Shown: in pieces, positions 3,943-30,077 of the stretch
How the letters are laid out: every line of letters begins with the position of its first letter
How positions within the stretch are numbered: the stretch's first letter is position 1
From: a virus
IMG/VR virus record: IMGVR_UViG_3300046163_000027
Location: 1 to 34,168 of that record
Direction: 5' to 3' (one strand)
DNA: 34,168 bases
Notes under the pieces: generated by a model
Databases searched by the model: none
What the model was told of the DNA's origin: nothing
Seen by the model: the letters and a program-made list of their open reading frames with translations, nothing else
Translations under genes and position numbers: made by a program

Positions 3943-6170
3943 TGCAAAAAATAGTATTATATATAAAAAATAATGATGATGTCTATAAGAGAGTAGATAT
4001 GTTTAATGATGAAACTATTTCGTTAACATCTAAAATACAAGATGTAAGAGATATACAAAAAGTATTTACTGACTTTAGTCAAACATTTACATTACCTGCC
4101 TCTAAAACAAATAACAAGTTGTTTCAACACTGGTATAACTATAATATTGATAATGGTTTTGATGCAAGAAGTAGAAAAGATGCTATAATGGAATTAGACT
4201 TTTCTCCATTTAGAAGAGGCAAGATTTCTCTTAATAATGTTAAGATGAAAGATAATAAACCTTTTTCTTATGAGGTTGTTTTTTATGGCAATACTATAAA
4301 CTTAAAAGATTTGCTTGGAGATGATGAATTAAGTACTCTTGGTCAACTAGATGATTATACACATGATTATACAAGTTCTAATGTTAAGAATGGATTACAA
4401 ACAGGATTATCTTCTGGTAAAATAATATATCCTTTAATATCACACACAAAAAGATTTTATTATGATTCGGCTCAATCTAGCCCTAATTATAGTGGTAATT
4501 TATATTACAACACATCACAAAACGGTATTGGTTTAGAGTTTGATGATTTAAAGCCTGCTGTTAAATGCTTAACTATAATAGAAGCTATAGAAGACAAATA
4601 TACTATGGCTAACGGATATTCTTCTAATGTTGTCTTTACTAGAGATTTTTTTAACTCAACTGAATTTAGTAATCTATTTCTTTGGTTAAGCAGAAATAAA
4701 GGAGCAATAGGAGGGGACGAAAACCAAGAAGAAACATTAAGTCGTATATGTGGCTCATGGGGATATTCTTCTGGTGACTTAGGTTTTAATATAACTGGAG
4801 ATACTTGGACTGTATCAACTTCAGGACACACAAGACGTTATGACGCAGAATTAACAATAACAACAACGGGTGCAGACCAGACTAAGCCTTATAGTGTAAA
4901 AGCTATTGATTACGTTACTGGAAATACGCTAGGACAATTAGCTTTGGGTGCAGGAGCTTCAAGAGATTTTACTGTTCAATTAATATCAACATTTGAATTA
5001 GTCAATTATCAAATTAAATGGATTGTTGAATCTAACGAAACTTTGTCGTTTACTCCTACATTAGACATGACAGAATATATACTTGACCCTATAACACAAA
5101 CTCCTACAGGTACAAATACTGCTGTATTTAATATAGGAGGAACTGGAGCAAGTATATCTACAACAAGTGAGATTATAATAACAGACAATGTGCCTAAAAT
5201 AAAAACTATTGATTTTCTTACAGGATTATTTAAGATGTTTAATTTAACAGCATATTATATTGATGATGTGGCTGATGCAGACTTTGGTAAAATATATGTA
5301 GATACTTTAGATAACTTTTATTTACATGCAGCAAACAATCCGTCTGAAGGTAGTTATGATATAACAAAACATATAGATACAAAAGAATTAACCATAGACA
5401 GGGCTTTTGAATTTAATCAAATTAATTTTGAGTATGAAAAACCCTCTACTTTATTATCTATTAATCATCAAGAGCAATTTAATGAGATATTTGGCAACGA
5501 AGAAGTAAGACCTACATTTGTTGATAGAGGAACTAAATACGAAGTTAAAGTACCTTTTGAGCATATGAAGTTTGAAAGAATAATCGACACTAATCAAACA
5601 GGAACAAGTCCTTATTCAGCAATCACATCTCCTTCGCCCTACATAACAGACATTCTTTGTGGTTATTCAGCAGATGGAGACTTTGAATCTAAAACAGACG
5701 TAACTCCAAACACTGGTAATTATTCTCCAGTATTAACTAAACCTTTAGTTTTTTATGCTATACAGAAAACTGGATTATCTTCTGGAACAGGAATTAAATG
5801 GATTTCAGATGGCACTCCTGTAGAAATAACACAATATTATAGACCTTCTAATACTAATGAAGATGGTACAACATCAACTGCGGCTTCTTTTACAATTAAT
5901 TTTGATGATGAAATAGATGAATGGAATTTAACCAATTATGATGGAGGCACTAACTCTTTGTTTAAAAAGTTTTATGCTAATTATATAAACGGAATCTTTG
6001 AAGAAAAGAAAAGAATATATAAGTTAAAAGGATACTTGCCAACAGATATATTAGTTAATTATAGATTAAATGATGAGTTTGTAATACAAGATAGAACATT
6101 TACGATTAATTCTATAAGCACAAACTTTAAAACTGAAGTAAGTCAATTAGAATTATTAAACAAATTATAA
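3942..6170 (+). CDS. Large tail/baseplate-like structural protein (742 aa)
   Basis: A 742-residue beta-rich protein encoded just upstream of the tape measure. The N-terminus (IQDVRDIQKVFTDFSQTFTL) and a stretch around residue 170-200 look like parts of a tail-tip hub or baseplate protein. The C-terminal 60 residues (LKGYLPTDILVNYRLNDEF then TINSISTNFKTEVS) resemble the beta-barrel end of hub-like tail proteins. No lysozyme or protease motif is visible. The start overlaps the previous stop (TAATG). Function as the tail tip or hub is inference from size, context and fold impression. Confidence 0.5.
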   Translation: MQKIVLYIKNNDDVYKRVDMFNDETISLTSKIQDVRDIQKVFTDFSQTFTLPASKTNNKLFQHWYNYNIDNGFDARSRKDAIMELDFSPFRRGKISLNNVKMKDNKPFSYEVVFYGNTINLKDLLGDDELSTLGQLDDYTHDYTSSNVKNGLQTGLSSGKIIYPLISHTKRFYYDSAQSSPNYSGNLYYNTSQNGIGLEFDDLKPAVKCLTIIEAIEDKYTMANGYSSNVVFTRDFFNSTEFSNLFLWLSRNKGAIGGDENQEETLSRICGSWGYSSGDLGFNITGDTWTVSTSGHTRRYDAELTITTTGADQTKPYSVKAIDYVTGNTLGQLALGAGASRDFTVQLISTFELVNYQIKWIVESNETLSFTPTLDMTEYILDPITQTPTGTNTAVFNIGGTGASISTTSEIIITDNVPKIKTIDFLTGLFKMFNLTAYYIDDVADADFGKIYVDTLDNFYLHAANNPSEGSYDITKHIDTKELTIDRAFEFNQINFEYEKPSTLLSINHQEQFNEIFGNEEVRPTFVDRGTKYEVKVPFEHMKFERIIDTNQTGTSPYSAITSPSPYITDILCGYSADGDFESKTDVTPNTGNYSPVLTKPLVFYAIQKTGLSSGTGIKWISDGTPVEITQYYRPSNTNEDGTTSTAASFTINFDDEIDEWNLTNYDGGTNSLFKKFYANYINGIFEEKKRIYKLKGYLPTDILVNYRLNDEFVIQDRTFTINSISTNFKTEVSQLELLNKL

Positions 6171-12662: not shown

Positions 12663-12998
12663 ATGGTAGTATTAACAACATCAACAGGTGCTCAGAGTTT
12701 TAAGGTAATTCCTAGAAGTGCACAAAGCTCAGTTACGTTTGAACTAACTGATAAATCTAAAAGAACTACAAGTACTGTTAGTGTTTCTGTAACTAATTCA
12801 AATGGGTATATGACTGTTACAGGTAGTTTTTCATTAGTAGAAGGTAGATTTTATTCATTTGCAATTAAAAATGGTGCTGTAATTATATATAGAGGCTCTA
12901 TTTTTTGCACAGACCAAACTAATTTTAATACCTTTGATGTACACTCTGGAGAATACACTACAGAAAACACATACGATAACGATTTTGTAATAATATGA
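12663..12998 (+). CDS. Small beta-rich structural protein (111 aa)
   Basis: MVVLTTSTGAQSFKVIPRS begins a Ser/Thr/Val-rich 111-residue protein that looks wholly beta-structured (FELTDKSKRTTSTVSVSV, then YMTVTGSFSLVEG). The stop overlaps the portal start as ATGA, so it is coupled to portal translation. It is probably a minor virion protein. No catalytic motif is visible and I know no role for it. Confidence 0.55.
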   Translation: MVVLTTSTGAQSFKVIPRSAQSSVTFELTDKSKRTTSTVSVSVTNSNGYMTVTGSFSLVEGRFYSFAIKNGAVIIYRGSIFCTDQTNFNTFDVHSGEYTTENTYDNDFVII

Positions 12999-14849: not shown

Positions 14850-14919
14850 CACCGAGTGGGGTGATACTGCAAACGAGAACACTTTACATATTGATTCACA
14901 ACCAACTTGTTTTGAATAA
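14812..14919 (+). CDS. Tiny protein upstream of the fibre gene (35 aa)
   Basis: MANTINWAEIYCSTEWGDT, 35 residues. The stop overlaps the fibre start as TAATG, and the start sits in an A-rich leader. Trp- and Cys-containing sequence of this kind looks non-random. It may assist fibre attachment or be a coupling leader. No known family function. Confidence 0.5.
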   Translation: MANTINWAEIYCSTEWGDTANENTLHIDSQPTCFE

Positions 14920-17900
14920 TGGCTACACTTTCAGGAAATAAAATAAAAGATACTTATCAGTCGCTTGTAAAGTTCTCTGATAATGGAAATATAACAGTTG
15001 GTGCTAAACAATTAACTGATGGTTTTGGTAATAACTCACCTATATTTATTTCTACTACTCAAGTAGGAATAGGAGTAACACCTGAATCAGGATTAAATCT
15101 TCACGTTTATGGTGATGCTAAAATAGGTAGCAATTTAACAGTAATTGGAAACTTAGTAGTAGAAGGAAGCACTACAACAGTAGGAACAGATACATTAACA
15201 GTAAAAGACCCTTTAATTGTACTGGCAAACAATAACACTTCTACAGATGCAGTTGATATAGGGTTTTATGGCAAATATACTCCTTCAGGTACTACACTAT
15301 ACTCAGGACTGTTTAGAGAAGCTCTAACAGGCAAATACAGATTATTCAAAGACTTACAAGAAGAACCTACTACAACAGTAAACACTAGTGGAACAGGATA
15401 TACTGTAGCTACTTTAGTTTCTAATTTAGAAGGAAACGTAACGGGTAATGTTACAGGTAATCTGACGGGGAATGTAACAGGAGGAACAATATCAGGTACT
15501 ACAGGCACATTTAGTGGAGATGTAGAGGTTAATGGTGGAGACTTGTCTATTACTTCTTCTACAGGATTAGCAAGTGTTGAACTTGGTGGAGCTTCAGGTG
15601 GTTATATAGACATTAAAGCACCTGAAAGCGATGATTATGATATGAGATTTATCGTTAGTCAAGGTGGTAATGAAATAACTACTGCAAGTGGTGATTTAAA
15701 AATAAATACAGCAAACACATTAGCCTTAACGATAGACACTTCACAAGATGCCACATTTGAAGGAGGTGTTACTGCAAGTAGTTTTAGTGGTAACTTAACA
15801 GGAAATGTTACAGGAAATTTAACGGGTAATGTCACAGGTAATGTTACTGGTAATGTTACAGGTGACGTAACAGGAGATGTTACAGGTGATGTAACTGGAA
15901 ATCTAACAGGTAATGTGACTGCAACTTCTGTATTAGCAGATGGGGTTACAGCAACTACTCAATCAGATGGAGACAACAGCACTAAAGTGGCTACTACTGC
16001 TTATGTAGATACTGCTATTACAGGTCACGATACATTAGCTGAGGTACTTGCAGGTGGTAATACTTCAGGTGGAACGTCAATGATTATTAGCAACGGAGAT
16101 GATTTTACAGTAAACACAAGTACGCTTAAAGTAGATTCAACTAATAGTCAAGTAGGTATAAATAATGCAAGTCCTTCAGGATTTACAAGTGGTGCTAAAG
16201 ATTTAATAATTGGAGATGGCACAAGTAATAGAGGAATAACAATATACTCAAGCAGTTTAGCTTATGGTCACTTATTCTTTCAAGATGCTGAATCTAGTAG
16301 TAGTACAAACGGAGGTTTTATTGCTTATACTCACGTTGGAGATGCTTTTGAAATTGGTGTAGCAGGAGCAGGATTAGGAGCAGGTAGTTTAAGTATAGGT
16401 TCTCGAGTATATACAAGAAAAGATTTTGCAGTTGATGCTACATACACAAATTTATTTGATACTCTTACTGTGGACGCTTCAACTGGAAAATTAGGAATAA
16501 GAAATGATGCTCCTGCATACCCATTAGATGTTAATGGAGAAGCAAATATCACTTCAGATTTAATAGTAGACACAGATACTTTGTTTGTAGATGCTTCAGA
16601 AGATTCTGTTGGTATTAATACAGTAAATCCTAGTTCTTATAGTAAACACGAATTAGTAATAACTGCACCAGATGAAGGGGGTATTACAATAGCTAGTGCG
16701 ACAGATGAGGCTGCATATTTAGACTTTTCAGATGGTTCTGGTGTAAAAAACTTTCTTCGTGTTGACCACGATGGAGATACATTTGGTTATAATTCTTGGG
16801 GTTCACACTTATTCACACTTGGTGAAGGAGTTGATTCTTTAACTTTAGATGACAATGGTGCAACTTTTGCAGGAAATGTAGGAATTGGAGGTGCTGCAAG
16901 CAGTACTCATACTCTTGATTTAAATAGTGCATCAAATTTAGCATTAAGATTTTATGATTCTACAACATTCAAAGCAGGTATGCAAGCTGTAGATACTGGA
17001 GGGCAAATGATTTCAAGTTCAGCAGATGGAGATTTTGCAATACGTTCTCAATCTAATATGCTTTTTTCTACTGGAGGAAATACAGAAAGAATGCGTATAG
17101 ATAGTTCTGGAAACGTAGGAATTGGAACGACTTCGCCTGACAATTCTTTGCATATTTTATATAATGATAGCACAATATATAGCAATAATACCTATAATGC
17201 AGGAATACAAATAGAAAATGAAAATAGTACAACAAACACTTTTTCACAACTACATTTTAGAAGTGGAAATTCGGATAGTTATATAAGAAACATTAAGGAG
17301 GGCAATAATTTATCATCTTTAGTATTTTTAACTGATAATGGAGGTGCAACTGGAGATGTTGGCGAGGTTATGCGTATAGATAGTTCTGGAAATATAACAA
17401 TAGGAGATAATAAAAGTATTATAAGTAATGGGAGTATTAGAATGGACATTGATAATGACAATGATTCAACTACAAGAGCATTTGTTGTAAGAAATGATGG
17501 TGGAACAAATACTTTGTTTAAAGTTCAAGAAGATGGAAACGTAGGAATTGGAATTGATTCGCCTGAAAATAAATTACACGTTGTAGGCGATGGTGATAGA
17601 ATTGAAATATCTAGTGATGATTATGATTTAGTTAAAATTGGTGCATATGGAGATACTGGTGCTGATATAGATAATGGCTTTTTAAATTTATCTTTAAATG
17701 GTTCTGAAAAAATAAGATTATTAGCAAATGGCACTTCATATTTTAATGGAGGAAACGTAGGAATTGGAGTTCAACCTGAAAGCACTTGGTACACGGGTGG
17801 TGAAACAAAAGCATTACAAATAGGTGGTACAGTATCTATATTTAATTTATTTGATACTCGTTCTGTTTTTGCAAACAATTATTACTTAACCACAGATGGT

Positions 17901-18917
17901 TCGGATACTTATATTAATACTGATGAAGCAACACAATATTATCAAGAAGGTGGTCAGCATATTTGGAAACACGCATCATCAGGAACTGCTGACACTACAA
18001 TTACTTGGACTGAAAGTATGCGTATAACATCTGGGGGGTTAAGTAAATTTAAAACACAAGCGGGTTCTTATGGTTATGGTTCAGGCTATAATTTTCACGA
18101 ATTTAATAGCGACTTTGGTAATCAACCAATAGCTATGTTTTGGCAAGCATCTGGAAGTGGCTCACATTATGGTATTAACGTACATAATAATGATGATGAA
18201 AACGATACTACTTCTCGTTTCTTTATGGGACAAGGTGGAAGTACCGAAAGAATAAAAATATATTCAAATGGAAATATTGAAAACACTAACAATAGTTATG
18301 GGCAATTATCTGATATTAAATTAAAGGAAAACGTAACAGATGCTACTTCTAAGCTAGAAGATTTAATGAAAGTTCAAATCAAAAACTTTAATTATATAGG
18401 ACAAGAACAAAAACAAATTGGTGTTATTGCTCAAGAGTTAGAACAAATATTTCCAAATTTAATATATGAAACTCCAAAAACAAAACGTGAAGAAGTAAAC
18501 AAAACGGATAATGAAGGTAATATAATTTATCAAACAGAACAAAAATTAATTAATGAAGCTGTTGAAGGACAAGACGCTATTGAGTGGAATGAAAAACCAA
18601 CACAAGATAATACAAAAATTGAGATTCAAACTTGGTTAGATAATAATAATATAGAGTGGCAAAGTGCAGATACGAAACAAGAATTACTTGATAGAATACC
18701 TGAATATCAACAAGAAGCAGTTGAAGCAAAGGAAGCAATATATGAAACAATAGAAACAGATGAACCTGTAAAAGAAAATGTAGAGTTAGCAACAGGAGAA
18801 GTTATAAAAGGAGTAAAATATTCTGTATTTGTTCCTATGTTAATTAAAGGAATGCAAGAACAACAACAACTAATCAATGATTTAAAAAGTAGAATAGAAA
18901 CACTTGAGAATAATTAA
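14919..18917 (+). CDS. Tail fibre with C-terminal S74 self-cleaving chaperone (1332 aa)
   Basis: The largest protein of the genome, a probable receptor-binding fibre. The N-terminus (about 1-110) is a virion anchor. Two blocks of the tetrapeptide GN(V/L)T repeat occupy about 172-188 and 291-334. The middle consists of repeated units such as MRIDSSGNVGIG, typical of trimeric beta-helix shafts. Residues 1131-1332 are a peptidase S74 intramolecular chaperone: Ser1131 and Lys1136 in SDIKLK match the catalytic Ser-Lys pair (spacing 5), and IGVIAQELEQIFPNLI follows. Cleavage before Ser1131 would leave a 1130-residue fibre. An HeH-like module (about 1233-1262) is inserted before the final helix. Confidence 0.85.
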   Translation: MATLSGNKIKDTYQSLVKFSDNGNITVGAKQLTDGFGNNSPIFISTTQVGIGVTPESGLNLHVYGDAKIGSNLTVIGNLVVEGSTTTVGTDTLTVKDPLIVLANNNTSTDAVDIGFYGKYTPSGTTLYSGLFREALTGKYRLFKDLQEEPTTTVNTSGTGYTVATLVSNLEGNVTGNVTGNLTGNVTGGTISGTTGTFSGDVEVNGGDLSITSSTGLASVELGGASGGYIDIKAPESDDYDMRFIVSQGGNEITTASGDLKINTANTLALTIDTSQDATFEGGVTASSFSGNLTGNVTGNLTGNVTGNVTGNVTGDVTGDVTGDVTGNLTGNVTATSVLADGVTATTQSDGDNSTKVATTAYVDTAITGHDTLAEVLAGGNTSGGTSMIISNGDDFTVNTSTLKVDSTNSQVGINNASPSGFTSGAKDLIIGDGTSNRGITIYSSSLAYGHLFFQDAESSSSTNGGFIAYTHVGDAFEIGVAGAGLGAGSLSIGSRVYTRKDFAVDATYTNLFDTLTVDASTGKLGIRNDAPAYPLDVNGEANITSDLIVDTDTLFVDASEDSVGINTVNPSSYSKHELVITAPDEGGITIASATDEAAYLDFSDGSGVKNFLRVDHDGDTFGYNSWGSHLFTLGEGVDSLTLDDNGATFAGNVGIGGAASSTHTLDLNSASNLALRFYDSTTFKAGMQAVDTGGQMISSSADGDFAIRSQSNMLFSTGGNTERMRIDSSGNVGIGTTSPDNSLHILYNDSTIYSNNTYNAGIQIENENSTTNTFSQLHFRSGNSDSYIRNIKEGNNLSSLVFLTDNGGATGDVGEVMRIDSSGNITIGDNKSIISNGSIRMDIDNDNDSTTRAFVVRNDGGTNTLFKVQEDGNVGIGIDSPENKLHVVGDGDRIEISSDDYDLVKIGAYGDTGADIDNGFLNLSLNGSEKIRLLANGTSYFNGGNVGIGVQPESTWYTGGETKALQIGGTVSIFNLFDTRSVFANNYYLTTDGSDTYINTDEATQYYQEGGQHIWKHASSGTADTTITWTESMRITSGGLSKFKTQAGSYGYGSGYNFHEFNSDFGNQPIAMFWQASGSGSHYGINVHNNDDENDTTSRFFMGQGGSTERIKIYSNGNIENTNNSYGQLSDIKLKENVTDATSKLEDLMKVQIKNFNYIGQEQKQIGVIAQELEQIFPNLIYETPKTKREEVNKTDNEGNIIYQTEQKLINEAVEGQDAIEWNEKPTQDNTKIEIQTWLDNNNIEWQSADTKQELLDRIPEYQQEAVEAKEAIYETIETDEPVKENVELATGEVIKGVKYSVFVPMLIKGMQEQQQLINDLKSRIETLENN
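15432..15482 (+). repeat. 12-bp coding tandem repeat in fibre gene, block 1
   Basis: About four 12-base units encode GNVT/GNLT tetrapeptides. Synonymous differences between units (acg, aca; ggt, ggg) show the amino acids rather than the DNA are conserved. Confidence 0.8.
15789..15920 (+). repeat. 12-bp coding tandem repeat in fibre gene, block 2
   Basis: Eleven 12-base units encode GNLT, GNVT and GDVT. Unit number in such a tract can change by slippage or recombination and would alter shaft length. Confidence 0.8.
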
Positions 18918-21113: not shown

Positions 21114-21117
21114 TTGC

Positions 21118-21681
21118 ATGGAAAACTTAACAAAGAAGTTGGTGCGTATTCAAGGGAGTTTGAAAGCACCGAAAAATCAAAGGAACAATTTTGGTAATTA
21201 TAATTACAGAAGTTGTGAAGACATCTTAGAGGCAGTAAAGCCTTTATTGGCAAAAGAAGAGTTATTGCTTACTATTACTGATTCTATTGCTCCAGAACCT
21301 TTATTTGTTAATGCAGTTGCAGAGATTACTGACGGTGTAGATAAAATACAAGTCAGAGCTCAAGCAGGTATTAACTTAAATCGTAAAGGAATGGATGTAG
21401 CTCAATGCTATGGTGCATCAAGTAGTTATGCTAGAAAGTACGCTTTAAACGGCTTATTTTTAATTGATGATACAAAAGATGCAGATGCTACTAATAATCA
21501 CTCTAACACGTCTAAAAACTCTTCTACGGCTGTCTTAGAGCCAAATAAAGACTGGCTAGAAGACAAAGGAGACAAGTTTGATAAAGCTAAACAAGCTATT
21601 AAAGAAAAAGGTTTTACTATCACCGATATTAGAAAAAAATATAAAGTAAGTAAGAAAGTAGAAAAATTATTATTAACCTAA
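21118..21681 (+). CDS. Erf-type single-strand annealing protein (187 aa)
   Basis: Anneals complementary single strands in phage recombination and replication. The N-terminal domain has KLVRIQGSLKAPKNQRNNFG, then NYNYRSCEDILEAVKPLL, a signature of the Erf superfamily; AQCYGASSSYARKYAL near residue 95-110 is another family block. A Ser/Asn-rich linker leads to a C-terminal helical tail. I chose ATG 21118: a longer reading from 20992 would start in promoter DNA and translate the terminator hairpin. The partner nuclease may be the RecE-like protein at 26176. Confidence 0.75.
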   Translation: MENLTKKLVRIQGSLKAPKNQRNNFGNYNYRSCEDILEAVKPLLAKEELLLTITDSIAPEPLFVNAVAEITDGVDKIQVRAQAGINLNRKGMDVAQCYGASSSYARKYALNGLFLIDDTKDADATNNHSNTSKNSSTAVLEPNKDWLEDKGDKFDKAKQAIKEKGFTITDIRKKYKVSKKVEKLLLT

Positions 21682-21963: not shown

Positions 21964-21995
21964 TCCCCCATTACGTTAAGTTTTGGGGGATTTTT
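21964..21995 (+). terminator. Terminator after the SSB-like gene
   Basis: TCCCCCA pairs with TGGGGGA around a loop of about 13 bases, followed by five T. The stem is seven G/C-rich pairs and lies eight bases after the gene stop. Confidence 0.8.
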
Positions 21996-22005
21996 ACCTT
22001 AAATC

Positions 22006-22311
22006 ATGACACAAAGAAAAAACACAAAATACGTTAATATTAATTTAGCATTTATGAACACAAATTTAACAATATCAGAAGCAACGGTTTTATCTTATAT
22101 AGATTCATTATCAATAAAAAAGGGTTATTGTTATGCCTCAAATGAAAGTATTTGTATGGCATTAAATTTAAACGATAGAACTTTATATAGGATATTAAAC
22201 AAATTAGAAAACAAGAAATACATAAAAAGAAAGACAAAGAGTTTAGGAAATGACGGAAAAGAACGTAAGATTTACGTTAGCCCAAGTGCCAAGAATGTCA
22301 GTTCTATGTAA
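22006..22311 (+). CDS. Winged-helix DNA-binding protein (101 aa)
   Basis: Residues about 20-80 match the helix-turn-helix of replication-initiator and regulator type: ISEATVLSYIDSL, GYCYASNESICMALNL, recognition helix NDRTLYRILNKLENKKYIKR. The N-terminus is basic. Its stop codon lies directly before the TACA-N3-TGTA repeats (22312-22366) and the primase-helicase gene, the arrangement seen when a replication initiator binds iterons beside its own gene. A transcriptional regulator of those dyads is the alternative. Confidence 0.6.
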   Translation: MTQRKNTKYVNINLAFMNTNLTISEATVLSYIDSLSIKKGYCYASNESICMALNLNDRTLYRILNKLENKKYIKRKTKSLGNDGKERKIYVSPSAKNVSSM

Positions 22312-22366
22312 TACACTGTGTATTATATAAATAAATAATACATAGTGTAATATATTACATAGTGTA
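22312..22366. repeat. TACA-N3-TGTA dyad array, locus 2, candidate origin
   Basis: Three copies at 22312 (TACACTGTGTA inside a 17-bp near-palindrome 22309-22325), 22339 and 22356 (both TACATAGTGTA), with spacings 27 and 17. They fill the gap between the winged-helix gene and the primase-helicase gene. The same dyad forms locus 1 at 542-629. Origin iterons or an operator are both plausible. Confidence 0.6.
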
Positions 22367-22394
22367 TTATAAAATATAGCAGAAATTTTATATT

Positions 22395-24122
22395 ATGCAA
22401 GAAAACTTTGAAAAAATTGGAATCGTACCTAAAGGCAAATACTCTCAACAGAAAGTAAAGTGCCCAAAATGTAGTCATACTAGGAAAAATAAAAGTGATA
22501 CATCGCTTTCTATAAACTTAGATGATGGATTATATCACTGCCACCATTGTGGCTGGAACGGTTCTGTAAACCCTAACAACAATATGATACAACAAAAAAT
22601 ATACACTAAGCCGACTACAAATAATTTAAAGAAAATAAATTCAAGTGCCATAAAGTTTCTTAATAGTAGAGGTATAACTAATGAAGTTATTGAAAACAAT
22701 AAAATAACCACTACTAAAGACGGCAAAAGTGTTGTATTTCCATACCTAAAAAACAATGAGCTTGTAAATTATAAAACTAGAGGCATTGACAATAAAACAT
22801 TTACCCAATCAAGAAACGGTCAACCTATTATATTCAATTACGATAGAGTAGTAAATCAAGACTTTGTAATACTTTGTGAAGGAGAATTTGATTCATTAAG
22901 TTGGGAAGTTGCAGGTTTCACTTGGCATACCTCTGTAAATATGGGTGCACCAAATGCCAGAGACAAAAACTTAGATAAGAAATTAGAATGTATAACAAAC
23001 TCTTATGAAGTGTTTGATAATGCAAAAGTAGTTTACTTATGTACAGATAATGACGAAAACGGAAGGTATTTAGAAGAGGAATTAATAAGAAGGATTGGTG
23101 CTGAAAAAATAAGATTAATAGACACAAATCCATATAAAGATGCTAATGAAGTTTTACTTAATGAAGGTGTAGAATCGTTACAGCATAGATTTAAACACGC
23201 TAGAGTGCCTAAAGTAGAAGGTGTTTTTGATGTTAGTGATATATACGATAGTATGTTAGATGGTTATAGAAACGGACAAGAAAGAGGTTCTACAACACAT
23301 ATAGATTGTATAGATAGGGCATGGACTTGGCGTAATGGCGAAGTAAACATTTGGACTGGCTATCAAAATGAAGGTAAAAGTATGTTTTTAAATCAGCTAT
23401 CAGTTTTAAAGGCATTTCACGATGGATGGAAGTTTGCAGTGTTTAGCCCAGAGAATATGCCAATAAATGATTTTTTCCATGATTTGATAGAATGTTACAT
23501 AGGCAAAAGTTCAGACCCTTTTTATCAGAACAATTATATGAGTGAAGTTGAATTTAAACAAGGCATGGAGTTTATGAAAAAGCATTTTTTTATTATATAT
23601 CCAAAAAAAAGTTATAAATTAGAAGACATATTTGAAAGAGCTAAGTTTTTAGTAAAAACAAAAGGCATACGTTCATTGATTATTGACCCATACAATACTG
23701 TACAACACAGAATGCAAAGAGGCGAAAGGGAAGACTTATACATAAGTAGATTTATGAGTGAGTTAAAAAGGTTTGCCGTAGAGAATAAAATCTCTGTTCA
23801 TTTAGTTGCACACCAAGTTACACCACAAAAAGATGATAATGGTAGATATAGAAAACCAGATGTCAACACGATTAAAGGTGGTGGAACATTTGCAGATAAA
23901 AGTGATAATGTACTTTTTGTATGGAGACCAAATAGAGCTTTAGATTTTAGTAATACTGAGGTTACGTTTGGCAGTCAAAAAATAAAGAAACAAAAATTGG
24001 TAGGTTATCCACAAGATATTGAAGGCATAACTTATCATAGGAAATCAAACAGATATTATTTCAACAATCAAACACCCTTTGATAGTGTAGATAATATCAG
24101 ATGCGAAAAAGAGCAAGAGTAG
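22395..24122 (+). CDS. Bifunctional DNA primase-helicase (575 aa)
   Basis: Makes primers and unwinds DNA at the fork. In order: a zinc-binding domain with Cys23, Cys26, Cys49 and Cys52 (CPKC and CHHC); a TOPRIM primase with Glu162 in CEGEFDS and Asp218-x-Asp220 in TDNDENG; and a DnaB-like helicase with the Walker A GYQNEGKS (322-329), Walker B LIIDPYNT (Asp431), VAHQ near 473 and GGGTFADKSDNVLFVWR. This is the T7 gp4-like layout, at a normal length. Its upstream gap carries the TACA-N3-TGTA repeats. Confidence 0.9.
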   Translation: MQENFEKIGIVPKGKYSQQKVKCPKCSHTRKNKSDTSLSINLDDGLYHCHHCGWNGSVNPNNNMIQQKIYTKPTTNNLKKINSSAIKFLNSRGITNEVIENNKITTTKDGKSVVFPYLKNNELVNYKTRGIDNKTFTQSRNGQPIIFNYDRVVNQDFVILCEGEFDSLSWEVAGFTWHTSVNMGAPNARDKNLDKKLECITNSYEVFDNAKVVYLCTDNDENGRYLEEELIRRIGAEKIRLIDTNPYKDANEVLLNEGVESLQHRFKHARVPKVEGVFDVSDIYDSMLDGYRNGQERGSTTHIDCIDRAWTWRNGEVNIWTGYQNEGKSMFLNQLSVLKAFHDGWKFAVFSPENMPINDFFHDLIECYIGKSSDPFYQNNYMSEVEFKQGMEFMKKHFFIIYPKKSYKLEDIFERAKFLVKTKGIRSLIIDPYNTVQHRMQRGEREDLYISRFMSELKRFAVENKISVHLVAHQVTPQKDDNGRYRKPDVNTIKGGGTFADKSDNVLFVWRPNRALDFSNTEVTFGSQKIKKQKLVGYPQDIEGITYHRKSNRYYFNNQTPFDSVDNIRCEKEQE

Positions 24123-24391
24123 ATGCTAACCAAAAAAAGATTGTCTCTCAAATTAGAGAGATGGGATGCTCTGTCCTCCATACTCATCAATTAGGCAAAG
24201 GTGCACCAGATATTATAGTAGGATATGCAGGTAACAATTATCTTATAGAAATTAAAGATGGAGACAAGCCGTTAGCACAACAAAAGCTTACGCCAGATGA
24301 AATTAAGTTTCAAGCTGAATGGCAAGGCAACTATCATGTTGTAAATTCATTTAACAAACTTAGAGACATAATATTTAAAGATGAGCTCTAA
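24101..24391 (+). CDS. VRR-NUC-type nuclease (96 aa)
   Basis: A minimal PD-(D/E)xK nuclease of the VRR-NUC group, which cuts branched or structured DNA. Visible residues: Asp37 in GAPDIIVG, Glu50-x-Lys52 in LIEIKDG, and the following QKLTPDEIKFQAEW block. The length of 96 matches stand-alone phage VRR-NUC proteins. It overlaps the primase-helicase gene by 22 bases and likely resolves or trims replication intermediates. Confidence 0.8.
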   Translation: MRKRARVDANQKKIVSQIREMGCSVLHTHQLGKGAPDIIVGYAGNNYLIEIKDGDKPLAQQKLTPDEIKFQAEWQGNYHVVNSFNKLRDIIFKDEL

Positions 24392-24950
24392 GATACTTGA
24401 CATATTAGCTAAGAGGCATAATGAATGGATAAATATGGCTAAGAGTTTTAAATTGGATACTAATGATGCTAATGAGTTAGTTCAAGATATGTATATTAGA
24501 ATGTATGATTATACAAAAGATGTAAAAAGAATTATGTATAATGAAACTGAAATTAATACATTTTACATATACATTACGTTAAGAAACTTGTATTATAGTA
24601 AGTTTACTAATTATAATAAAAATAAAAAAACAGTATTGTTTTCAGATATAGACAATGAAAAATTTAGTTATATTATGAATCAAATAGTTTATGATGTTGA
24701 GCAACATAATGATAATTACAAAAAAAAAGTTAACTTAGAGGCACTCTATAACAAGATTGATAGCGTTATTGAAGATTGGTATTGGTACGATAAGAAGCTA
24801 ACTAAGTTATATTTAAATACTAATATGAGTATGCGAGATATTAGTAAAGAGACAAAAATAAGTTTAAGTTCAATATTTAATACATTAACAAATGCCAAAG
24901 AAAAAATCAGGAAAGAAAGTAAAGAAGAGTATAAAAAGTACAAAGGCTAA
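24381..24950 (+). CDS. Sigma-70-like (ECF-type) factor (189 aa)
   Basis: An N-terminal helix pair resembling sigma region 2 (LAKRHNEWINMAKSFKL, ELVQDMYIRMYDYTKD, about 9-47), an unusual charged linker, and a C-terminal HTH like region 4 (LNTNMSMRDISKETKISLSS, about 145-178). It lies in the middle of the replication block and overlaps both neighbours. If active it would redirect host RNA polymerase to phage promoters, possibly those carrying TCAGTTGGA. The region 2 match is weak and this may be a different HTH regulator. Confidence 0.55.
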   Translation: MSSKILDILAKRHNEWINMAKSFKLDTNDANELVQDMYIRMYDYTKDVKRIMYNETEINTFYIYITLRNLYYSKFTNYNKNKKTVLFSDIDNEKFSYIMNQIVYDVEQHNDNYKKKVNLEALYNKIDSVIEDWYWYDKKLTKLYLNTNMSMRDISKETKISLSSIFNTLTNAKEKIRKESKEEYKKYKG

Positions 24951-26949: not shown

Positions 26950-27141
26950 ATGGACAATGAATATTTAGATTACTTAGATTGTTACGAAGACACTCTATTA
27001 TGTCTAAAGAAAAGAGTAATAACAGAAAACGAAATACCTATATTAATCGAGCAATATGAATTTGAAGAGCACTATGAATGTTGTGGTGCAATATTACACG
27101 CTTTAGAAGATTACAAGGCTCAACAAAATTATTTACCATGA
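26950..27141 (+). CDS. Small acidic protein (63 aa)
   Basis: MDNEYLDYLDCYEDTLLCLK, with high Glu/Tyr/Cys and no Lys-rich patch. It begins immediately after the exonuclease stop and overlaps the next start by four bases. No known motif. Possibly a DNA mimic because of its charge, but I have no evidence for a target. Confidence 0.5.
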   Translation: MDNEYLDYLDCYEDTLLCLKKRVITENEIPILIEQYEFEEHYECCGAILHALEDYKAQQNYLP

Positions 27142-27551
27142 TTTCACCAAAACACATAATAGAAAAAATAGTTGAATTGTCAAGATTAAATATATTTAAC
27201 AAGACCAGAAAAAGAGAATATGTCGAGGTTAGGTCTTTGCTAAACCATATATTATATAATCATAAAAGAATGACTTTATTTAATATTGTTAAGATATATA
27301 AGAAGTATGGCTGGGAAGTTAATCACGCTACAATTTTATATTCACTCAGAACTTATGAGGTTCATAAAAACTACAATAAAGATTTAATAGTATGGGAACA
27401 AAAGATTATTGATAAAATAAATCAAATGGATAATTATACAAAGCGAGAATATATTAAGAGCAAAGTAAATTATCTTAACAATAAAGACGTTGATGAATTG
27501 ACTATGGTTATTAGCAATATGGTAGATAAAAAATTAGAGTATGCAGAATAA
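27138..27551 (+). CDS. DnaA domain IV-like DNA-binding protein (137 aa)
   Basis: ATG 27138 (ATGA overlap) is preferred to the upstream ATG at 27078, which would run through the preceding gene. The N-terminus is KHIIEKIVELSRLNIF, then RKREYVEVRSLLNHILY and NHATILYSLRTYEVHK near residues 62-76. The last resembles the DnaA signature NHxTV-type helix that contacts DnaA boxes, with the long helix before it also matching. The AAA+ part of DnaA is absent, so it cannot load helicase alone. A helicase-loading competitor or a DNA-binding factor is possible. Confidence 0.5.
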   Translation: MISPKHIIEKIVELSRLNIFNKTRKREYVEVRSLLNHILYNHKRMTLFNIVKIYKKYGWEVNHATILYSLRTYEVHKNYNKDLIVWEQKIIDKINQMDNYTKREYIKSKVNYLNNKDVDELTMVISNMVDKKLEYAE

Positions 27552-28238: not shown

Positions 28239-29436
28239 AAAATATCAAGCTCTATTTAATTCAGATAGTAGATACTATGTAATTACAGGAGGAAGGGGAA
28301 GTGGAAAGTCTTTTGCTACAAACACATTTTTAGTATTACTTACTTACGAAAAAGGACATAGAATATTATTTACTCGTTATACAATGACCTCAGCAGGTAT
28401 GTCAATTATACCTGAGTTTATTGAGAAGCTAGAGTTAATGGGCATACTTGACCAGTTTACTGTTACTAAAACAGAAATCATTAATAATTTAACAGGCAGT
28501 TCAATATACTTTAGTGGTATTAGAACATCAAGTGGAGACCAAACGGCAAAGCTTAAATCTATTCAAGGTGTTAGTTCGTTTGTTTTAGATGAGGCAGAAG
28601 AGCTAACAGACGAAGAGAGTTTTGATAAAATTGATTTTAGTATTAGAGCAAAGAATGTAAAGAACAGATGTATATTAATTCTAAACCCTACTACAAAAGA
28701 GAATTGGATATATCAAAGGTTCTTTCAAAACAGAGGAGTTCCTGACGGATTTAATGGCACAAAAGAAAACATTACTTACATTCATACAACTTACTTAGAT
28801 AATTTAGAACATTTATCAGAATCGTTTGTAAAGCAAATTAATGATATGAAAGTCAGAAGACCAGAGAAGTATAAGCATCAGATTATGGGAGGCTGGTTAC
28901 AAAGAGCAGAAGGAGTTATATTTACTCATTGGAATATAGGTAAATTCAATACGGAAATAGATTCAATATTCGGTTTAGACTTTGGATTCTCTGTTGACCC
29001 TTCAGCGTTAATTGAAGGTGCGATTGACAAAACTAGGAAAATTATTTGGTTTAAAGAACATCTTTATAAAAAAGGTTTAACTACCTCACAAATTTATGAT
29101 GCTTGTATTAGAAAGGTTGGCAGGAATTTAATAGTTGCTGACAATAGCGAACCGAGATTAATTACTGAATTGAAAACAAAAGAACAAGGATTAAACATAG
29201 TACCAACCATAAAAAAGAAGGGAAGTATATTATCAGGAATTGCATTGATGCAAGATTATCAAATTGTAATTGATAGCAATTCAATAAATTTAATTCGTGA
29301 GTTTAATAATTATTCTTGGAAGCTTACAGGTTCTATCCCTCAAGATGATTGGAATCATGGAATTGATGCTTGTCGTTATCTTTGTCAGTACCTACTTACT
29401 AGGTCTGTACCTCATGGCAATTACTTTATTAGGTAA
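28216..29436 (+). CDS. Terminase large subunit (406 aa)
   Basis: ATP-driven DNA packaging motor with a nuclease domain. Walker A GGRGSGKS (25-32) and Walker B FVLDEAEE (Asp125, Glu126) form the ATPase. The C-terminal nuclease has Asp255 in GLDFGFSVDPSALI, Asp309 in VADNSEPR and Asp384 in HGIDACRYL. The length is typical of PBSX/T4-like large terminases. It is the last gene of the replication-packaging block and far from the portal gene. Confidence 0.92.
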   Translation: MKKLNLNKKYQALFNSDSRYYVITGGRGSGKSFATNTFLVLLTYEKGHRILFTRYTMTSAGMSIIPEFIEKLELMGILDQFTVTKTEIINNLTGSSIYFSGIRTSSGDQTAKLKSIQGVSSFVLDEAEELTDEESFDKIDFSIRAKNVKNRCILILNPTTKENWIYQRFFQNRGVPDGFNGTKENITYIHTTYLDNLEHLSESFVKQINDMKVRRPEKYKHQIMGGWLQRAEGVIFTHWNIGKFNTEIDSIFGLDFGFSVDPSALIEGAIDKTRKIIWFKEHLYKKGLTTSQIYDACIRKVGRNLIVADNSEPRLITELKTKEQGLNIVPTIKKKGSILSGIALMQDYQIVIDSNSINLIREFNNYSWKLTGSIPQDDWNHGIDACRYLCQYLLTRSVPHGNYFIR

Positions 29437-29491: not shown

Positions 29492-29516
29492 TCAGTTGGA
29501 GAATTAATTACTATAT
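29492..29516 (+). promoter_or_regulatory. Candidate phage promoter (TCAGTTGGA type)
   Basis: TCAGTTGGA at 29492-29500 is followed at about 12 bases by TATATTG, 45 bases before the gene at 29561. It is the same nonamer as 668 and 30029. Confidence 0.45.
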
Positions 29517-29560
29517 TGAACACAGTTCATTGAAATATTGTTTAACTAAAAATTAAAAAC

Positions 29561-30024: not shown

Positions 30025-30055
30025 TTGGTCAGTTGGAAATAATTAACTAAGTTTG
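30025..30055 (+). promoter_or_regulatory. Promoter of the small-ORF operon
   Basis: TTG at 30025-30027 and TAAGTTTG at 30048-30055 are separated by 20 bases, close to the Bacteroidota pattern. TCAGTTGGA lies within it at 30029-30037, so the two promoter types coincide here. ATG 30078 follows 23 bases later. Confidence 0.6.
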
Positions 30056-30077
30056 TGTATAACTAATAAATAAAACT

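Follow-up and report, generated by a model that had tools for sequence, protein, structure and literature searches.

Paired arrays of a 17-bp dyad about 12 kb apart, one beside an initiator-type winged-helix gene, as candidate replication origins in an apparently flavobacterial phage lineage

Does the short, palindrome-bearing gap between a small winged-helix gene and a primase-helicase gene serve as a replication origin, and is the winged-helix protein the initiator that binds it? We addressed this question in a 34,168-base virus record (IMGVR_UViG_3300046163_000027), the whole of which is called the window here and which carries a 197-bp direct repeat at its ends, giving a circle of 33,971. 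The genes identified in the window all lie on the + strand. Structural genes extend from 719 to ~20.8 kb and are followed, in order, by erf, a small gene, the winged-helix gene (wHTH), the primase-helicase gene, a sigma-like gene, a PD-(D/E)XK nuclease-like gene and terminase, with many small ORFs downstream of terminase. A search for wHTH relatives in bacterial genomes and plasmids found none, so that host and lifestyle were taken from the nearest named phages (Tenacibaculum and Nonlabens); the phage lineage is apparently flavobacterial. The elements at the locus are as follows.

21115-21681, + strand: erf-type annealing protein gene (Pfam ERF, E 4.3e-35), the recombination partner in the model proposed below.
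21965-21998, + strand: terminator-like hairpin with a T-rich tail, directly 5′ of the wHTH start codon (z -3.9).
22006-22311, + strand: wHTH gene, 101 aa, initiator-type winged helix (HTH_36; phrog_428; AlphaFold model pLDDT 82.3).
22309-22325, 22336-22352 and 22353-22369, no strand: array 1, three 17-bp dyads, kept in 48/48 and 25/26 loci.
22395-24122, + strand: primase-helicase gene, 575 aa (DnaB_C, E 2.4e-10, and Toprim_2, E 4.3e-8, both above cut-off; phrog_239, E 1.9e-80).

The first-pass annotation had described a winged-helix gene that ends where three dyads begin, a very AT-rich gap and a primase-helicase gene starting 28 bases after the dyads. This description was correct in substance but overlooked a second, larger array at 539-630. 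The TAA stop of wHTH (22309-22311) indeed supplies the first three bases of dyad 1, and the gap is 84.9% A+T; the distance of 28 bases holds when counted from the 11-bp core, which ends at 22366, but becomes 25 when counted from the full 17-bp dyad. The 150-bp segment at the array 1 gap ranked at the 94th A+T percentile of the genome and that at array 2 at the 97th, and the most AT-rich segment of the genome, at 33701, lay away from both arrays. Because the DNA is so AT-rich, dyad symmetry by itself is weak evidence: the array 1 gap held five perfect local dyads, where shuffles averaged 1.6 and 25 of 300 reached five. Across 15 records scored, the perfect local dyads (6-bp arms) in this gap were mostly not clearly above shuffles, with none in G012 and G026 and one in G023. 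Palindrome statistics alone were set aside as evidence, and recurrence and conservation were used in their place.

Conservation of array 1 was nearly complete. An IMG/VR protein search with wHTH returned 48 loci, and inspection by eye located a dyad array directly 3′ of the wHTH stop and 5′ of the primase-helicase gene in every one of them (48/48). The window-type dyad (group A), with the core TACAYAGTGTA and close variants, was present at 36 loci; the other 12 constituted group B, with wHTH 49−53% identical and the dyad core TACAWTGTA. A profile search added groups C (69−75% identical), D (60%) and E (53−56%). From its 80 loci, 26 were picked to span the new sequence groups and inspected by eye, and 25 of these carried repeats at the array 1 position, the sequences differing in D and E. 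The exception, L219 (around 4001-4330), encoded a wHTH 64% identical and had no dyads between wHTH and primase-helicase, the first ATG of the primase-helicase frame lying five bases past the wHTH stop. No such dyad cluster was found elsewhere on its 10.7-kb record, which ends short of gene 719. All five groups (A−E) also had a terminator-like hairpin directly 5′ of the wHTH start codon, its sequence differing between them; for group B (G012, G013 and G029) it was taken from the upstream sequence, since the hits did not start at the initiation codon. The hairpin of the window itself was not picked up by a consensus terminator scan.

Scanning the window with the dyad consensus gave 18 strand-matches, against a shuffle mean of 1.86 and a maximum of 7. 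Outside array 1 there were six matches at ≤3 mismatches, five of them inside 80 bp (539-618), and whole shuffled windows contained on average 1.7 and at most 5 matches at this threshold (200 shuffles). Recurrence of the dyad in the window exceeds chance. The second array occupies a non-coding gap with a 79-aa ORF on one side and the gene 719-1435 on the other, and its surroundings comprise the following elements.

277-516, + strand: 79-aa ORF, the conserved neighbour 5′ of array 2, with no Pfam match.
516-661, no strand: long, imperfect outer inverted repeat with GTCAG/CTGAC arms, enclosing array 2.
539-630, no strand: array 2, five to six copies of the array 1 dyad, mostly in 17-bp steps (at 539, 556, 573, 590 and 602, with a weak copy at 614).
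669-691, + strand: conserved promoter-like element, CAGTTGG...GTACA, lying 3′ of array 2 and 5′ of gene 719.
719-1435, + strand: gene 719, 238 aa, the first gene 3′ of array 2 (phrog_32199, E 1.4e-20).

As single-stranded DNA, the block 516-661 folded into one hairpin (z -4.6), a fold partly expected because the dyads are tandem. Among the sequences compared, the GTCAG/CTGAC ends also recurred in most of those from group A and in some from group C. A further single group B dyad was noted 5′ of the 79-aa ORF in G013 (at 28251) and G015 (at 12853; both in oriented coordinates), and it represents a possible third site. In Nonlabens phage P12024L, the homologue of gene 719 sits directly after terminase; this phage has a VirE-type primase, which makes it uninformative on the wHTH/primase-helicase module.

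The two arrays were then compared across 33 whole records by a motif-free approach, each genome being searched for the 9-mers of its own array 1. The comparison was confined to the 24 records with both wHTH and the gap before gene 719. This excluded G018, where the window proteins used had no relative, G019, whose record lacks wHTH, and G004, G023-G028 and G030, which lack gene 719. The gap before gene 719 was the best second place for array 1 9-mers in 23 of the 24, the window included, with scores of 10−44 there and ≤8 in other segments. In the exception, G021 (group E), this gap scored 3 and another place 5, and array 2 was not recovered. Records G016-G020 had come from the dyad pattern scan and were hence selected for the presence of dyads, not for their position. 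That scan, run across the whole collection of 2.9 million viral contigs (IMG/VR), detected 79 stretches with two dyads close together, 76 of which carried a relative of this phage; on the stretches with a relative, 78 paired-dyad clusters were counted, of which 46 coincided with array 1 and 30 with array 2, leaving 2 elsewhere. All five group B records (G011-G015) had B dyads at both arrays and lacked any exact A core. The two arrays were separated by 10.2−13.3 kb with a mean of 12.1 (approximate values from hit coordinates, measurable in 18 of the 24 records). Taken together, the 9-mer, pattern-scan, group B and distance results indicated that the motif is kept at two specific places and changes together at both, so that this phage group has two arrays with a shared, co-changing motif, fixed gene neighbours and a roughly constant separation. 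The co-change agrees with wHTH as the binder without proving it, because the phage groups differ throughout and array co-change is confounded with phage phylogeny.

Partition and packaging systems, too, are known to have tandem palindromes at two fixed places, and the arrays could in principle have a function of this kind or in some other DNA transaction, acting for instance as a centromere or a packaging mark. We consider such a role very improbable: no ParA-like protein was present among the window proteins scanned, a subset of the ORFs, and array 1 lies between an initiator-type gene and the replicative helicase, not before terminase.

The profile matches of wHTH pointed mainly to replication initiators. 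The protein belongs to Pfam HTH_36 (PF13730; 40.3 bits against a cut-off of 25, E 2.8e-10), and its best PHROG match was the replication-initiator family phrog_428 (E 2.3e-13). Eleven of its 17 PHROG matches were to replication initiation, O-like or DnaD-like loader families, and one was to a transcription regulator. By tblastn, wHTH matched 15 records of named phages, 13 of them Staphylococcus phages, and several of these matches carry the annotation 'replication initiation protein' (40% over 70 residues). The PadR profile reached 22.8 bits, below its cut-off of 27, and the MarR profile 15.3, below its cut-off of 24.6, and the nearest solved structures by sequence profile were SMU.1704 and PadR-type regulators.

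Structure comparison gave a more mixed picture. With the wHTH model as a query, the top Foldseek match in the PDB was 4pql (E 1.7e-4, TMq 0.61 over the whole model). The eight chains at E ≤0.001 comprised 4pql (two chains), 5kbj (a Rep-DNA complex), 4pt7 (an initiator) and four MarR-type chains, the TM-scores of the MarR-type chains being somewhat above those of 4pql, 5kbj and 4pt7. The entries 4pql and 5kbj are RepA_N initiators. According to PMC7145576, 4pt7 also belongs to the RepA_N initiators. In VIA-align, regulators led the ranking of matches to the model (top Z 10.6), the T4 MotA domain had a Z of 9.8, and 4pql ranked 20th (Z 9.6). The modelled fold leaves the choice between initiator and regulator undecided, and wHTH consists of one domain of 101 residues with no separate C-terminal domain.

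These likenesses bear on a second explanation, which we regard as a serious though less probable one: wHTH may be a MarR/PadR-like transcription regulator with two operators that times an early-to-late switch. Array 1 would then control or road-block transcription into the primase-helicase operon, and array 2 would act on the structural-gene operon. wHTH shares its winged-helix fold with MarR regulators and with the activation domain of T4 MotA, and the weak PadR profile match (22.8 bits), the palindromic sites adjoining gene starts and the conserved promoter-like element 3′ of array 2 all fit a regulator. The phage's sigma-like protein could moreover serve unusual promoters. This protein, encoded at 24381-24950, matched phrog_1740 (E 3e-4) and, below cut-off, NCBIfam Sig70_bacteroi1 (E 6.2e-6), and could have phage-specific late promoters as possible targets. 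The promoter-like element was well preserved, with CAG[AGT]TG standing almost equally far from the gene start in 23 of 25 records. The dyads, however, varied in their spacing to this element and did not overlap it, which speaks against a fixed-spacing activator.

Other features also fit poorly with operators. The dyads of wHTH lie 3′ of its gene, not 5′, the hairpin stands directly before the start codon, and the profile matches favour initiators; compared with MarR/PadR regulators, which share the winged-helix fold and the weak PadR match, wHTH scores below the PadR cut-off and has its tandem arrays 3′ of the gene, off recognizable promoters. Promoters were sought with the consensus TTG, 16−20 bases, TAnnTTTG. 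No consensus Bacteroidetes −7 box was found in the array 1 gap or in the 250 nt before gene 719 in any of 14 records (14/14), whereas erf had the full promoter consensus 28−32 nt upstream in 9/14 records, a recurrence that itself lends support to the consensus. Phage-specific promoters at the arrays are possible. Many plasmid initiators do both jobs, replication initiation and regulation, and a dual-function wHTH would fall between the two explanations. Should the arrays be operators, their paired dyad would still be nearly diagnostic for this phage group.

It is also conceivable, though improbable, that the dyads are bound by another protein, either a host factor or the DnaA-C-like product of 27078-27551, and that the adjacent wHTH is incidental. 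Only gene position and shared variation tie wHTH to the dyads, and a DnaA-C-like protein is present. This 157-aa protein resembled the DnaA DNA-binding domain IV (Pfam E 0.019; NCBIfam E 4.1e-4; both below cut-off) and represents an additional candidate origin binder. On the other hand, the dyad motif differs between the wHTH groups, and at E 1e-3 the DnaA-C-like gene was not found in 5/5 group B and 3/3 group C array-bearing records, one weak match being present in the B-like G029. Strict DnaA-box matches also fell outside the arrays. As origin evidence in their own right, DnaA boxes were discarded: 13 strict matches at ≤1 mismatch were counted, one of them exact (24005) and none in the arrays, and a looser pattern gave 119 matches with one in each array.

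The order of initiator, iterons and helicase had earlier been read as a candidate replication origin near 22.3 kb. The layout proved real and conserved and the protein has an initiator-type profile, but skew analysis lent no support to an origin at that position. The GC-skew minimum anticipated near 22.3 kb did not appear, as none of the five circles analysed (the window, G001, G013, G017 and G020) had a detrended minimum at array 1, and none of them had one at array 2. The detrended minimum lay 4.8−6.5 kb past the gene 719 start in four circles and 14.3 kb past it in one, and the skew was positive almost everywhere. With genes on a single strand such a skew is to be expected, so that the test has little power, and it was given little weight in either direction. 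The non-coding junction, which the first-pass annotation had named as the competing location, does hold the larger dyad cluster, 12 kb off, but the skew minimum was absent there too. A larger cluster of the same dyads 12 kb away means that the origin is not simply placeable at 22.3 kb.

A two-site arrangement has a counterpart in SPP1. The origin-binding protein gp38 (G38P) of Bacillus phage SPP1 has two target regions, oriL within the gp38 gene itself and oriR 12−13 kb away (PMC3485210, PMC6316719). As in SPP1, where they are 12−13 kb apart, one protein would here have repeated AT-rich sites at two places, 10.2−13.3 kb apart. One SPP1 site lies at the initiator gene, with the helicase genes immediately following, a position that array 1 also takes at 48/48 loci; the other is intergenic among late genes, and an annealing recombinase is also encoded (PMC3485210, PMC6316719). 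The present system differs in that array 1 lies 3′ of the gene and not within it, the protein has 101 aa, the sites are palindromes and not direct repeats, and primase and helicase are fused. No separate helicase loader, the counterpart of SPP1 gp39, was recognized among the window proteins scanned, a subset of the ORFs.

RepA_N initiators offered a further comparison. Those of plasmids such as pSK41 and of PLEs resemble the present system in combining a winged-helix DNA-binding domain with repeated semi-palindromic sites, and in PLE RepA the domain and its iterons vary together (PMC8263062, PMC7145576). The top Foldseek match of wHTH, 4pql, is in line with this likeness, and MarR proteins fit equally. 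RepA_N (PF06970) was absent from the 16 families matched at E ≤0.1 by the window wHTH and from the 18 matched at E ≤0.5 by group B; wHTH further differs from these initiators in having no C-terminal domain and dyad sites twice in the genome.

Positional evidence came from Tenacibaculum phage JQ, in which a DnaD-like initiator (247 aa) occupies the slot before a related primase-helicase (49% identical). This initiator and wHTH both match phrog_270, replication initiation. The JQ protein has two domains, unlike wHTH, and short direct repeats lie inside its gene. No similarity between the wHTH family and the JQ initiator was detected by hhalign, so that apart from the shared phrog_270 match JQ provides positional evidence only. 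Within the DnaD-like initiator gene of JQ (L162 19596-19640), three copies of a 21-nt stretch with 12-nt spacing were observed, which may form an in-gene origin.

The explanation that we favour, with a confidence falling just short of even, is that wHTH is a stand-alone initiator-type protein acting on both arrays and that the arrays are initiator-bound origins. The initiator-type profile, the JQ slot, the missing −7 box and the SPP1 geometry were counted for this reading, and the lack of a helicase-recruiting second domain, the MarR-like fold, the lack of a skew signal, the dyad-free L219 and the promoter-like element were counted against it. We infer the binding of wHTH, its occupancy of the arrays as dimers, the opening of DNA and every replication step as follows. 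Dimers of wHTH would recognize the 17-bp dyads and fill both arrays, and several bound dimers would open the AT-rich duplex at one or both of them, with recruitment of the fused primase-helicase to the opened DNA. On the SPP1 pattern, forks would depart from array 1 as the theta origin. Array 2, at the boundary of the small-gene region and the structural genes, would act as a second origin or a fork barrier, where stalled forks and Erf-dependent recombination would give rise to concatemers and thereby to a switch from theta replication.

A more specific version of the origin reading, which remains doubtful, holds that a ~100-residue wHTH lacking any recruitment domain marks a pair of origins 12 kb apart for a loader-free primase-helicase in an independent, minimal SPP1-like design; array 2 would be the fork barrier for the passage from theta to concatemer, and the protein and both arrays would change their specificity together. 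Two-site initiator binding (SPP1) and winged-helix binding of semi-palindromic iterons (RepA_N) are known counterparts; the present phages would combine the two with a protein reduced to the domain alone and with dyad motifs that form a series from one phage group to the next. A search of open-licence literature turned up no account of these arrays. If the origin reading is true, these uncultured phages have a compact two-site replication control and offer a natural way of asking whether a second initiator-bound array ~12 kb away recurs as a concatemer-switch device. The dyad types and their winged-helix partners across groups could be used to derive a recognition code.

Two further observations were made in the window. 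At 29494-29530 and 30025-30060, a repeated GTCAGTTGGA motif followed by a TAnnTTTG-like box was found 5′ of small-gene blocks, and the same arrangement was seen in relatives; these elements are likely phage promoters. The 1332-aa protein encoded at 14919-18917 is rich in GNVTGNVTG-type repeats and is tail-fibre-type by appearance.
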